Shown piece after piece: positions 18,613 through 26,431 of a stretch of 37,821 bases of DNA (positions are counted from its first letter, which is position 1; each line of letters starts with the position of its first letter). The DNA comes from Bacillota bacterium (GTDB lineage: Bacteria; Bacillota; Clostridia; CAKSNL01; HGM11501): contig JAUZPY010000008.1 of the NCBI GenBank assembly GCA_030705805.1, forward strand, positions 1-37,821, read 5' to 3'. The position numbers and the translations under genes were made by a program. The notes beneath the pieces were generated by a model. The model worked only from the letters and a program-made list of their open reading frames with translations. It had not been told where the DNA came from and did not search any database.

Positions 18613-20842
<2,230 letters not shown>

Positions 20843-20876: not shown

Positions 20877-22085
20877 TTATTTATTGCTATATGCTTCTAA
20901 ATAGGCTGCCGGAAGAATATTCTTTACAAATGCACTTTGCATGGCCTTTGTAATGGCATCTTCTAATGTAACCGGAAGTGATTCAAGCTTATCTGTAATA
21001 CTTTTATCTGCTTTGTATAAATTAATATTCAGTGCTTCCGGTATATGAAGCTTTCTTTCAATACCATCAAGCCCAGCATAAATCAAGAGTGCAAACGCCA
21101 GATAAGGGTTTGCGGTAGGATCCGGGGAACGTAGCTCAATTCGTTTATCCCCGTTCTTGACAGCCGGAATACGAATCAATTGCGAACGATTTTCATGTGA
21201 CCAGGTAACATATTTCGGAGCTTTTTTCTCACCAAGTCTCTTATAAGACTGTTCTGTAGGATTTAAAAATAAAGTTATTTCTTTAATGTGCTCCATAATG
21301 CCGGCCATGAACGGCTGGGTACAATCCTTGCCTTTTTCACAATCCAAAGACATATTAATATGCATTCCGCTACCTGATTGATCTTTAAGGGGTTTTGGTG
21401 AAAAGTCTGCATTTAATCCGTTTCGCATAGCAACTGTTTTCACAACCCATTTAAAGGTGGCCGTATTATCCGCGGCAGACAAAGCGTCACTATAGTGAAA
21501 ATCAATTTCATTCTGCCCCGGCCCCTCTTCATGATGTGAAGCTTCCGGTTGAATTCCCATATCAATCAAAGTAAAACATATTTCACGACGCACATTTTCG
21601 CCGCTGTCTTCCGGCGCTATGTCCATATATCCTGCGTTGTCAAAAGGCAGCGTTGTTGCATTGCCGCTTTCATCGGTTTTAAACAAATAAAATTCCATTT
21701 CAGGTCCAAAATTTACGGAAACTCCCTTTTCTTTTGCAGCCTTAATGGCATTTTTCAAAATTAAGCGGCTGTCCTTCTCAAAAAGTGAACCGTCAGGATA
21801 CCTGATATCACAATACATTCTCACCACTCTGCCATGTATAGGCCTCCAAGGCAGAATTGAAAGCGTGGATGGATCAGGATGCAAAAACAAATCACTCTTA
21901 ACCTCGTCTCCAAAGCCTGCCACAGCCGAAGCATCAAAGGAAATACCATCTATAAATGCACGCTTAAGTTCATCCGGCATGATAGAAATGTTTTTTTGCT
22001 TTCCGAATACGTCGAAAAATGCAAGCCGTATAAACTTCACGTCTTCTTGTTCTACAAAAGTTAGCACCTCGTCATATGAATACAT
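20877..22085 (-). CDS. glnA: Glutamine synthetase type I (short form, 402 aa)
   Basis: GSI motifs FDASAVAGFGDEVKSDLFLHPD, GPEMEFYLF, EASHHEEGPGQNEIDF, KDQSGSGMHINMSL, NRSQLIRIPA, RSPDPTANPYLAFALL. Confidence 0.93.
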   Translation of the reverse strand: MYSYDEVLTFVEQEDVKFIRLAFFDVFGKQKNISIMPDELKRAFIDGISFDASAVAGFGDEVKSDLFLHPDPSTLSILPWRPIHGRVVRMYCDIRYPDGSLFEKDSRLILKNAIKAAKEKGVSVNFGPEMEFYLFKTDESGNATTLPFDNAGYMDIAPEDSGENVRREICFTLIDMGIQPEASHHEEGPGQNEIDFHYSDALSAADNTATFKWVVKTVAMRNGLNADFSPKPLKDQSGSGMHINMSLDCEKGKDCTQPFMAGIMEHIKEITLFLNPTEQSYKRLGEKKAPKYVTWSHENRSQLIRIPAVKNGDKRIELRSPDPTANPYLAFALLIYAGLDGIERKLHIPEALNINLYKADKSITDKLESLPVTLEDAITKAMQSAFVKNILPAAYLEAYSNK

Positions 22086-22134: not shown

Positions 22135-22194
22135 CAAAAACGAAAGCGTTCATCCGAAGGATAACTTTCCCCTTTAAGATGAACGCCATTGCCC
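22135..22194 (-). promoter_or_regulatory. ANTAR-target leader and terminator of glnA
   Basis: On minus strand P1 GGGC-[AATGGC]-GTTC (22194-22181), then 9 nt to AAAGGG; terminator GCGTTCATC/GATGAACGC (22186-22178 with 22154-22146) followed by TTTCGTTTTT. Confidence 0.75.
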
Positions 22195-22222: not shown

Positions 22223-22251
22223 ACTATACAAGAAAATCAATTATTTGTCAA
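22223..22251 (-). promoter_or_regulatory. Sigma-A-type promoter for glnA
   Basis: On the minus strand TTGACA (22251-22246), 17-nt spacer, TATAGT (22228-22223). Confidence 0.85.
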
Positions 22252-22291: not shown

Positions 22292-22320
22292 TTGACAAGA
22301 CAAGATTCATGAAATATAAT
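22292..22320 (+). promoter_or_regulatory. Sigma-A-type promoter for glnN
   Basis: TTGACA (22292-22297), 17-nt spacer, TATAAT (22315-22320); perfect consensus. Confidence 0.9.
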
Positions 22321-22331
22321 GGCTATATAAA

Positions 22332-22375
22332 TGGCAATGGTGTCGCAGGTAAAGGTATCTGTGGTACCGTTTTTT
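22332..22375 (+). promoter_or_regulatory. ANTAR-target antitermination element, unit 1 of glnN leader
   Basis: P1 TGGC-[AATGGT]-GTCG (22332-22345), P2 CAGGT-[AAAGGT]-ATCTG (22346-22361); both hexaloops have A1 and G4. Terminator GGTAT-CTGTG-GTACC (22354-22368) followed by T6 shares sequence with P2. Confidence 0.8.
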
Positions 22376-22424
22376 GTTAAACATGCATTAGGAACTGCAT
22401 TCCTAATATCCCTAAAAAAATGCA

Positions 22425-22470
22425 ACGGCAAAGGCGTCGTGAATTGTTTACGATACCCTTGTCGTTTTTT
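22425..22470 (+). promoter_or_regulatory. Second ANTAR-type P2/terminator unit in glnN leader
   Basis: Hairpin ACGGC-[AAAGGC]-GTCGT (22425-22440), A1/G4 hexaloop, mutually exclusive with terminator ACGGCAAAGG (22425-22434) / CCCTTGTCGT (22456-22465) plus U-tract 22465-22470. Confidence 0.72.
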
Positions 22471-22497
22471 ATTTTAAAGCAAAAAGGAGATAGAACA

Positions 22498-24591
22498 ATG
22501 AATACATTTTCAGAGTTGTTTGGCTCATGCGTTTTTGATGAATCAACTATGAAAGAGCGTCTGCCTAAGGAGACCTTTAAACAGCTGCAGCGTACTATAC
22601 AAAACGGAAGAAGTTTAGATAGCAACATTGCTAACGTAGTAGCTAATGCTATGAAGGATTGGGCCATTGAAAAAGGTGCAACTCATTACACCCACTGGTT
22701 CCAGCCTATGACAGGTATTACCGCTGAAAAACACGATAGTTTTATTTCACCTACAGCTGACGGTAAAGTAATTGCAGAGTTCTCCGGCAAAGAATTGATA
22801 CAAGGAGAACCTGACGCTTCATCTTTCACATCAGGCGGACTTCGTGCAACATTTGAAGCACGTGGCTATACAGCATGGGATCCTACATCTTATGCCTTTT
22901 TAAAGAATGGCGTTCTTTGCATTCCTACTGCTTTTTGTTCTTACGGCGGTCACGCTCTTGATAAAAAGACCCCGTTGCTTCGCAGCATGGAAGCAATAAA
23001 CAGGCAAGCAATGCGTATTTTGAAACTCTTTGGCAATGATGACGTTACATCGGTTAAAACAACCGTAGGTCCGGAACAAGAGTATTTTCTTATCGATAAA
23101 AAATATTACGAACAAAGAAAAGACCTTATTTATACAGGCAGAACCTTATTTGGTGCTAAAGCTCCTAAGGGTCAAGAGCTTGAAGATCATTATTTTGGTA
23201 CTATCAAATCCCGTGTTCAGGCTTACATGAATGAGCTGAACGAAGAGCTTTGGAAGCTGGGAATTCTTGCAAAAACCGAACATAATGAAGTTGCTCCCGC
23301 ACAGCATGAGCTGGCACCGATTTTTACCACAACCAATATCTCTACAGATCATAACCAACTGACAATGGAGTTAATGCAGAGAATTGCAAAGAAGCATGGT
23401 CTTGTATGCCTTCTTCATGAAAAGCCCTTTGCCGGTGTTAACGGCAGCGGCAAGCACAATAACTGGTCAATTTCCACCAATACCGGTGTAAACCTTTTGG
23501 AACCCGGTGAAACACCTTATGAAAATGCACAATTTCTTCTGTTCCTTTGTGCGGTAATTAAGGCAGTTGATGAATATCAGGATTTACTTCGTATTTCCGC
23601 CTCATCAGCAGGAAACGACCACCGTCTTGGCGCTAACGAAGCACCTCCGGCTGTAGTTTCTATTTTCCTCGGCACTCAGCTTACCGAAATATTAGAAGCT
23701 TTAGAAAGCGATGCTTCTTACGATGCAAAAGAAAAAGAACTCATGAGGATCGGTGTTCATGTACTTCCGAAATTCCCCAAGGATGCTACAGACCGTAACC
23801 GTACTTCGCCTTTTGCATTTACCGGTAATAAGTTTGAATTCCGTATGCTTGGCTCTTCTGCTTCAATTTCAGGTCCTAATATTGTTTTAAATACTGCAGT
23901 AGCAGAGGAACTTAAACAATTTGCTGACATTTTGGAATCTGCAAAGGATTTTGAATTGTCTTTGCATGATATTATTCAAGATACAATTAAAAAGCATAAG
24001 AGAATTATATTCAACGGCAATGGTTATGACGATGCTTGGATTTGCGAGGCTGAAAAGAGAGGTCTTCTCAATTTGAAGACCACACCTGATGCTCTCACAT
24101 ATTACCTCAATAAGAAAAACATAGATTTATTTACTTCTCATAAGGTTCTCAGCGAAGATGAAATGTGCTCTCGTTATGAGATTTTAATGGATAACTATAT
24201 AAAAGTTATAAATATAGAAGCACTTACTATGGTGGATATGGTTAGAAAAGATATTCTTCCCGCTGCAAGCAGATATACAAAAGAGCTTACAGATACAGCT
24301 CTTGCAAAGAAAGCTTTAGGCGATGATATTAATGCTTCTTATGAATTAGAGTCTGCAAAGCAAGTATCACACTTAACCAGTTCTATCTTTGAGCACGTAA
24401 AAGCACTGGAAAAAGCATTAATGAATGCAAAAGAAGTTACAGACCTTGAAAAATTAGCTTTCTATTATAAGGATTATATCTTTACAGCAATGATATCTCT
24501 TCGTGCTGTTACAGACGAACTGGAAGGTATTACAGCAGAGGATGTATGGCCTTATCCTTCCTATGGTGAATTGTTATTTGGTATCCTTTAA
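22498..24591 (+). CDS. glnN: Glutamine synthetase type III
   Basis: [80 protein letters not shown]; true start at 22498 behind AAGGAG, not ORF start 22420, which lies in the leader. Confidence 0.95.
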
Positions 24592-24608
24592 TATAAAATA
24601 GCGTTGAT

Positions 24609-24822
24609 AAAGAGAAGTAGCACAGAAGTTCTGTTTTTAAGCGAGTATGGGATGGTGGGAGCCATATACAAGTATCTGTGTGAATAACACTTTGGAGCTG
24701 CAATCTGAAAAGCATTACTGCTTAGTAGGTGAGCCGTGAGCCGAGCGAAAATCGGCAGCTTTTTTAAAAAGCAAAAGTAAAATAAGTAGGTGGCACCGTG
24801 AGTCACAGCACTCACCCTATCA
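24609..24822 (+). promoter_or_regulatory. T-box leader, asparagine specifier (AAC), upstream of asnB
   Basis: Stem I: AAAG/CTTT, AGAAGTAG S-turn, CACAGA/TCTGTG, distal AGCGAGTATGG-GATGGTGGGA-GCCATA, specifier GAATAACA with AAC at 24686-24688; T-box AAGTAGGTGGCACCGTGAG around 24784-24802 with TGGC matching a G-discriminator tRNA. Confidence 0.9.
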
Positions 24823-24850: not shown

Positions 24851-26431
24851 ATGTGTTCTATTATGGGTTACTGTGTAAACGGTGCCGCCTTTGACGTTTT
24901 TAAACAGGCTCTCAGTCGTACATCTTCCCGCGGTCCAGATGATACGAAAACTGTAGATACCGGTAATGGATTTCTTGGGTTTAACCGGCTTTCTATTATG
25001 GGGCTTACCGAGGAAGGTATGCAGCCTTTTTCATTAGATGGTGATTATGCCGTATGCAACGGCGAAATATATGGTTTCAGACCACTTAAAGAAGATTTAA
25101 TAAAAAAGGGATATAAATTTAAAAGTGACAGCGACTGCGAAATTTTATTGCCGATGTACCGTGAATATGGTGTGTCTATGTTCAATATGTTGGATGCGGA
25201 ATATGCACTTATAATTTATGACAGCAAAACCAAATCATATATAGCTGCAAGAGATCCCATTGGTATCCGTCCCCTGTTCTACGGCTATGACGAGAATGGT
25301 GCAATCATATTTGCCAGCGAAGCAAAAAATCTTTTAGGTTTAACAGGTAAAATTATGCCCTTTCCTCCCGGCTATTATTATAAAGACGGGGAATTTATTT
25401 GCTATCGTGATATGACTAAAGTAAAAGCAGTCTGCCATGATGATATCGAAGTAATATGTAAAAACATTCACGATAAGCTGGTAAAAGGCGTTGAAAAAAG
25501 ACTTGATGCTGATGCACCGGTAGGCTTTTTGCTTAGCGGAGGATTAGATTCCTCTCTTGTATGCGCCATTTCTGCAAAATTATTAAATAAGCCTATATGC
25601 ACCTTTGCCATTGGTATGAGCGAGGATGCAATAGACCTTAAATATGCTAAGGAAGTTGCTGATTATATAGGCAGCGACCACCAGGAAATCATTATAACAA
25701 AAGAAGACGTACTTGGGGCTCTTGATACTGTCATTGAGCTTCTTGCAACTTATGATATTACAACAATTCGTGCCTCTATTGGTATGTATTTAATATGCAA
25801 AGCCATTCATGAGCAAACAAATGTAAGGGTGCTTCTGACAGGTGAAATATCCGATGAGCTCTTCGGATATAAATACACCGACTATGCTCCCTCTGCCAAA
25901 GAATTTCAGGATGAGTCAGCTAAACGCATACGTGAACTTTATATGTATGATGTTCTTCGTGCCGATCGTTGCATCAGCACAAACTCTTTGGAAGCTCGGG
26001 TACCCTTCGGAGATATTGATTTTGTGGAATATGTGATGAGTATGGACCCTTCTATAAAAATGAACACATATGGCAAAGGAAAATACTTGCTTCGCCATGC
26101 TTTTGAAGGTGATTACTTACCCCATTCAATATTAATGCGTGAGAAAGCTGCTTTTTCCGATGCGGTAGGACATTCCATGGTAGATTACCTAAAAGAATAT
26201 GCAGAAGCTAAATACAGTGATGAAGACTTTTTAAAGGAATGCAAGAAATATACATACGCAGCTCCTTTTACAAAAGAATCACTCCTGTATCGTGAAATAT
26301 TTGAAAAGCATTATAAAAGCCAATCACATATGATTGTAGATTTTTGGATGCCGAATAAATCATGGGAAGGCTGCAATGTAAATGATCCTTCTGCAAGAGT
26401 TCTTGCAAATTATGGTGACAGCGGCAAATAA
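24851..26431 (+). CDS. asnB: Asparagine synthetase (glutamine-hydrolysing)
   Basis: N-terminal MCSIMGYC class II GATase, RGPDDTKTV, NGEIYGFRPLKEDL; SGGLDSSLVCAISAKL PP-loop. Confidence 0.94.
   Translation: MCSIMGYCVNGAAFDVFKQALSRTSSRGPDDTKTVDTGNGFLGFNRLSIMGLTEEGMQPFSLDGDYAVCNGEIYGFRPLKEDLIKKGYKFKSDSDCEILLPMYREYGVSMFNMLDAEYALIIYDSKTKSYIAARDPIGIRPLFYGYDENGAIIFASEAKNLLGLTGKIMPFPPGYYYKDGEFICYRDMTKVKAVCHDDIEVICKNIHDKLVKGVEKRLDADAPVGFLLSGGLDSSLVCAISAKLLNKPICTFAIGMSEDAIDLKYAKEVADYIGSDHQEIIITKEDVLGALDTVIELLATYDITTIRASIGMYLICKAIHEQTNVRVLLTGEISDELFGYKYTDYAPSAKEFQDESAKRIRELYMYDVLRADRCISTNSLEARVPFGDIDFVEYVMSMDPSIKMNTYGKGKYLLRHAFEGDYLPHSILMREKAAFSDAVGHSMVDYLKEYAEAKYSDEDFLKECKKYTYAAPFTKESLLYREIFEKHYKSQSHMIVDFWMPNKSWEGCNVNDPSARVLANYGDSGK

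Follow-up and report, generated by a model that had tools for sequence, protein, structure and literature searches.

The window analysed here, a Bacillota contig of 37,821 nucleotides, carries two glutamine synthetase genes on opposite strands. On the forward strand, glnN (22498..24591) encodes a type III glutamine synthetase with the Pfam domains GSIII_N, Gln-synt_C and Gln-synt_C-ter, and is preceded, at a distance of about 8 nt, by the ribosome-binding site AAGGAG. On the reverse strand, glnA (20877..22085) encodes a type I-like glutamine synthetase and is the first gene of the same-strand cluster glnA-ANTAR-pyrG-purB-purA-purC-purF, which looks like one operon. The ANTAR gene of this cluster (20255..20842, reverse strand; Pfam ANTAR, 65.5 bits) encodes a protein with a pseudo-receiver domain, our proposed regulator. 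It adjoins glnN and is the only ANTAR gene that a search of the genome returned.

The glnN leader is arranged in the order promoter-H1-T1-H2-T2-RBS-glnN, and each of its two units combines a strong intrinsic terminator (T) with one conserved A1/G4 hexaloop hairpin (H) lodged in the terminator's 5' arm. Based on sequence, a strong promoter is predicted at 22292..22320 on the forward strand (TTGACA 22292-22297, a 17-nt spacer and TATAAT 22315-22320), from which transcripts would start about 5 nt before H1. H1 (22332..22345, forward strand), the putative antiterminator of unit 1, reads TGGC[AATGGT]GTCG with the hexaloop in brackets, and its terminator T1 (22336..22375, forward strand) comprises a perfect 16-bp hairpin (22336-22371) and a T6 U-tract (22370-22375), rather than the weak GGTAT/GTACC terminator of the preliminary description. 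The 5' arm of T1 is made up of the H1 loop, the 3' strand of H1 and an apical stem, CAGGT[AAAGGT]ATCTG. Downstream of a spacer hairpin found by folding (22387..22407, forward strand), H2 (22425..22440, forward strand; ACGGC[AAAGGC]GTCGT), the putative antiterminator of unit 2, is enclosed in T2 (22425..22470, forward strand), which has its hairpin at 22425-22465 and a T6 U-tract at 22465-22470. All sequence strings quoted in the preliminary description are present in the window. In both units the 5' arm of the terminator takes in the loop of H together with its 3' strand, which is the overlap expected of an ANTAR antiterminator. The folding that had been suggested for the leader (22327-22497) gave -47.3 kcal/mol, 3.5 SD better than dinucleotide shuffles (z -3.5), and 0 of 200 shuffles were as stable. 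At the curated gathering score, Rfam gave no match for the window leader or for 20 related loci.

To evaluate conservation, the leaders of 80 named glnN relatives were scanned for an A1/G4 hexaloop hairpin nested in a terminator. The 81 glnN leaders contained 59 units, with at least one in 45 leaders and at least two in 14, and no unit occurred in 405 shuffled leaders (five shuffles of each glnN leader). The H stem of 39 aligned units showed 17 double-changed cells compared with 6.8 +/- 1.8 in shuffles, and 11 of the 14 terminator pairs in the aligned units had compensatory changes. Since these 39 units had been chosen for possessing an H stem, the test was repeated on a further set, for which a model pairing the terminator only and not the H stem (R1) collected 64 units from other Clostridia. 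Pairing of their 4-bp H stem reached 96.5% of cells, whereas shuffles averaged 79.5% and did not exceed 84.8%; exchanges of C-G to A-U and G-C to A-U were seen. All 64 R1 matches have A1/G4, a count that is not independent because R1 was trained on A1/G4 units. Units 1 and 2 of the window scored 47.4 and 42.3 bits with the unit model, far over chance, with both units being in the alignment of a model whose training sequences include the window. The model also matches the antisense strand, the terminators being near-palindromic, and overlapping weaker matches were dropped before counting. The alignment of glnN leaders from relatives, proposed earlier as a check, found the second hairpin and terminator to be conserved and covarying like unit 1. 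Because the H stem and the terminator each covary, selection seems to maintain both alternative folds, which is what an antiterminator/terminator pair would need.

The predicted energies are in line with such a pair. Medians over all units are -3.2 kcal/mol for H and -25.1 kcal/mol for T, and the H/T values in the window are -1.0/-17.5 kcal/mol for unit 1 and -4.2/-18.7 kcal/mol for unit 2. H is weak and T is strong throughout, as positive antitermination requires; since H is much weaker than T, termination would be the expected default and a protein would be needed to hold H.

Serial units were found in about 30 leaders, a few of the flagged pairs being weak, with a spacing of 51-140 nt between H1 and H2 and a terminator between them. 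These tandem leaders include glnN of other Clostridia and of Treponema, amt in the present genome and in G241, and purC in G001. If two serial units act independently, the response would become sharper, as in a steep, multiplicative switch. An alternative is that unit 2 alone is regulated, and that unit 1 is an attenuator of other purpose, for instance one that limits leakage or produces a short RNA independently of ANTAR. About two thirds of leaders (61/94) do have a single unit, and H1 of the window (-1.0 kcal/mol) is weaker than H2. However, H1 is conserved and covaries like H2, unit 1 is the one nearest the promoter, and first units retain A1/G4 across genera, so that we consider regulation through unit 2 alone very unlikely.

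The number of hexaloops per unit is the second point on which the leader could be read differently. The classical ANTAR target consists of two hexaloops, P1 and P2, joined by a short linker (PMC3369931). The preliminary description had interpreted each unit of the glnN leader as such a target, with P1 recruiting the protein and P2 excluding the terminator, so that two classical targets would follow one another. In unit 1 a further A1/G4 hexaloop, CAGGT[AAAGGT]ATCTG, does come directly after H1, but this presumed P2 is the apical part of T1 and hence not mutually exclusive with it. It is a variable tip whose hexaloop is of the kind that arises by chance: an A1/G4 apical hexaloop is present in T in 11 of 127 units, 82 of which have some apical hexaloop, and the nearest relatives, L002 and L003, differ from the window in the T1 tip. 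TGGC[AATGGT]GTCG, the presumed P1, is indeed a hexaloop hairpin, but it is homologous to the P2-type hairpin of unit 2. Unit 2 itself is without a P1 hexaloop; the 8-bp hairpin at 22387-22407 that had been offered for this role exists, but its loop is 5 nt and it is an unconserved spacer hairpin.

Across leaders, a recruitment hairpin would also have little place. A promoter-like pair lies upstream of the first H in 91 of the 94 unit-bearing leaders, and in these 91 the distance from the -10 box to H is mostly 8-16 nt, with a mode of 11-12. With the -10 box 11-12 nt upstream of H, there is therefore no room for a recruitment hairpin before it. Within 65 nt upstream of H, 1 of 93 leaders had another A1/G4 hexaloop against 0.9 expected, and looser criteria gave 2 of 70 against 1.7 expected; the scan of eutP/pduV loci meant as the positive control for second hairpins offered too few hexaloop-plus-terminator candidates to be informative. 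The spacer contained an A1/G4 hexaloop in 1 of 30 tandem pairs. The spacer between the two glnN units of L021, unlike other tandem leaders, has two extra A1/G4 hexaloop hairpins, ggga[AAAGAC]ttcc and caatcc[AACGGG]ggattg. H1 and H2 were also considered as P1 and P2 of a single classical motif and rejected, because a terminator and a distance of 51-140 nt separate them and because 61 leaders contain just one unit.

Taken against the published definitions, a second hexaloop within each unit (Ramesh 2012) is at about chance level upstream, at the apex and in the spacer, and there is no conserved partner at the linker length of 5-12 nt seen in eut or of 2-25 nt used in later searches. The single-hexaloop minimal motif, a G4 and A1 loop on a short stem (PMC8934654), is present in both H1 and H2. 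The stacking of two units in the preliminary description is thus real, each unit having a hexaloop and a terminator, while its pairing of P1 with P2 in every unit gives way to a single conserved hexaloop for each terminator. Under a strict dual-hairpin definition the glnN leader is not a member of the class, though it would work like one, and two classical dual-hairpin targets in a row are very unlikely here.

Several features of the ANTAR protein and its surroundings bear on the regulation. The receiver of the window protein is degenerate, with Asn59 at the position of the phospho-acceptor Asp; among its ANTAR relatives, Asn replaces this Asp in 18 of 22 and the acidic pair is absent, and because of these substitutions the protein resembles a pseudo-receiver that would answer to a partner and not to a kinase. 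From the gene neighbourhood, our guess is that glutamine synthetase itself is this partner. At the positions corresponding to EutV RNA contacts, the 22 relatives have His for Tyr164 in all cases, keep Met172 in all cases and have Arg for Lys147 in 21. A single unit was found by direct reading in the glnA leader (22136..22194, reverse strand), consisting of the hairpin GGGC[AATGGC]GTTC at 22194-22181, a terminator at 22186-22146 and a U-tract at 22145-22136, downstream of a promoter predicted from sequence at 22223..22251 on the same strand (TTGACA 22251-22246, TATAGT 22228-22223). A unit in this position, ahead of glnA and on the strand opposite glnN, is conserved in nine of the relatives examined; the R1 search of the genome had missed the one in the window. 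Because the leader of the glnA-ANTAR operon carries its own unit, the regulator is probably autoregulated.

The R1 search of the source genome gave one further convincing site, before the amt operon (C111, 40.4 bits), whose leader is also tandem, with a second unit of 26.3 bits. Four other R1 matches (C114, C94, C79 and C82) resembled plain terminators without the ANTAR hexaloop on inspection and were rejected. In other genomes, the genes downstream of units are glnN, amt, asnA, purC, pyrG, gltB and an amidotransferase gene. In many gut Clostridia and in Treponema, units recur at nitrogen genes. Among 194 Clostridia genomes, all 32 with unit matches at E<=1e-5 have ANTAR, as do 46 of 48 at E<=1e-4 (Fisher p 1.2e-12, a value inflated by shared ancestry); the unit/ANTAR table for 50 glnN genomes reads 33/5/2/10, an association that shared ancestry likewise inflates. 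Two consecutive ANTAR-type units under one regulator, the core of the preliminary description, are therefore well supported by conservation, covariation, ANTAR co-occurrence, the adjacency of the genome's sole ANTAR gene and the tandem layout at amt.

Some genomes depart from this pattern. Treponema ruminis (L051) has two clear glnN units and no ANTAR gene that profile or protein search could find, possibly through recent loss of ANTAR or because a different regulator is used. In the G001 assembly, tandem units precede purC and a CobB/CobQ-like amidotransferase gene (L113 and L115); no ANTAR gene was found in this assembly, and its glnN contig ends just upstream. L009 and L043, both from genomes without ANTAR, retain an AAAGGC segment and a terminator about 65-70 nt before glnN in which H-stem pairing is lost (gcggcAAAGGCggc), and the unpaired segment may be a natural relic. 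That the units are merely strong intrinsic terminators under some non-ANTAR factor, as T. ruminis might suggest, is highly improbable, since an A1/G4 hexaloop and a covarying H stem would serve nothing in a plain terminator, units and ANTAR are strongly associated, and it is in the two ANTAR-less genomes L009 and L043 that the H stem no longer pairs.

The glnN leader is most probably controlled by ANTAR antitermination of a single-hexaloop, recruiter-less kind, with two switches in series. By default, T1 would form, and T2 would form for those polymerases getting past T1, such that transcription would stop before glnN. When active, as expected under nitrogen limitation, the pseudo-receiver ANTAR protein would bind the A1/G4 hairpin as it emerges from RNA polymerase, and the stabilised H would withhold its loop and 3' strand from the terminator; passage of both gates would be needed for full glnN expression. 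No separate recruitment hairpin would be involved, with H1 about 5 nt from the predicted start and one hexaloop per terminator. The same regulator probably governs its own operon (glnA-ANTAR-pyrG-pur) by one unit and the amt operon by two. We infer ANTAR binding, termination, antitermination, the signal and the multiplicative response from sequence, conserved structure, covariation, co-occurrence and gene context. Counting against the model are the need of published ANTAR proteins for both hairpins, the T. ruminis units without ANTAR, the weakness of H1 and the reliance on predicted transcript starts.

ANTAR nitrogen regulons, with several units per transcription unit, are already known. By covariance search, 13 units in 6 transcription units were assigned to such a regulon in Desulfotomaculum acetoxidans (PMC3369931), where ammonium transporters and glutamine and glutamate synthases are targeted and several units per transcription unit occur, as here; those matches were defined by two hexaloops, and stacked single-hexaloop leaders are not described in the accessible portion of the source. 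Published searches for ANTAR targets have required two hexaloops. EutV antitermination needs both hairpins, and NasR needs both for full affinity. The eut antiterminators of EutV (Ramesh et al. 2012, PMC3369931; PMC8934654) resemble the glnN units in several ways: a short-stem A1/G4 hexaloop overlaps an intrinsic terminator on its 5' arm, the gene for the ANTAR protein is close by, and one regulator serves several units. In contrast to eut, the glnN leader has one hexaloop per terminator with no P1 and no linker, its hairpin lies at the extreme 5' end of the predicted transcript, two units are serial in one leader and the regulator is a pseudo-receiver without the phospho-acceptor Asp. The nasF and amiE leaders (NasR, AmiR) likewise represent ANTAR antitermination of nitrogen genes, and AmiR is also a pseudo-receiver, but they have two hexaloops and one terminator per leader. 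Clo1313_2030 of C. thermocellum and nitR of C. acetobutylicum (cited in PMC4676874) are ANTAR/antiterminator genes in glutamine synthetase or nitrogen clusters with a suspected antiterminator role; no RNA target is described for these Clostridium genes in the available part of that paper. A search of the openly accessible literature found no account of antiterminators with one hexaloop and no recruiter, nor of such units stacked in series.

We consider it likely that the glnN leader represents a class of ANTAR antiterminators that is widespread in Clostridia and Treponema. Such antiterminators would have a single hexaloop for each terminator, placed at the extreme 5' end of the transcript, and would work without a recruitment hairpin; their regulator would be a pseudo-receiver ANTAR protein encoded together with glutamine synthetase. 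Where two units are stacked, the leaders of glnN, amt and some purC genes would become two-step gates, and H1 may in addition recruit the protein for H2. A single hexaloop was proposed as the minimal motif from the EutV structure, in a paper that calls for study of its use and raises the question of the need for both hairpins and of the role of lone hexaloops (PMC8934654). A natural one-hexaloop class would make the need for both hairpins directly testable and would enlarge the nitrogen regulon in anaerobic gut bacteria; its one-gate and two-gate leaders, which occur naturally under the same regulator, can be compared.

Elsewhere in the window, Rfam matched one T-box and two tRNAs only. The T-box leader (RF00230, 93.4 bits; 24595-24822, forward strand) lies between glnN and the asparagine synthetase gene asnB (24851-26431), placing an attenuation system of another kind at the gene adjoining glnN.
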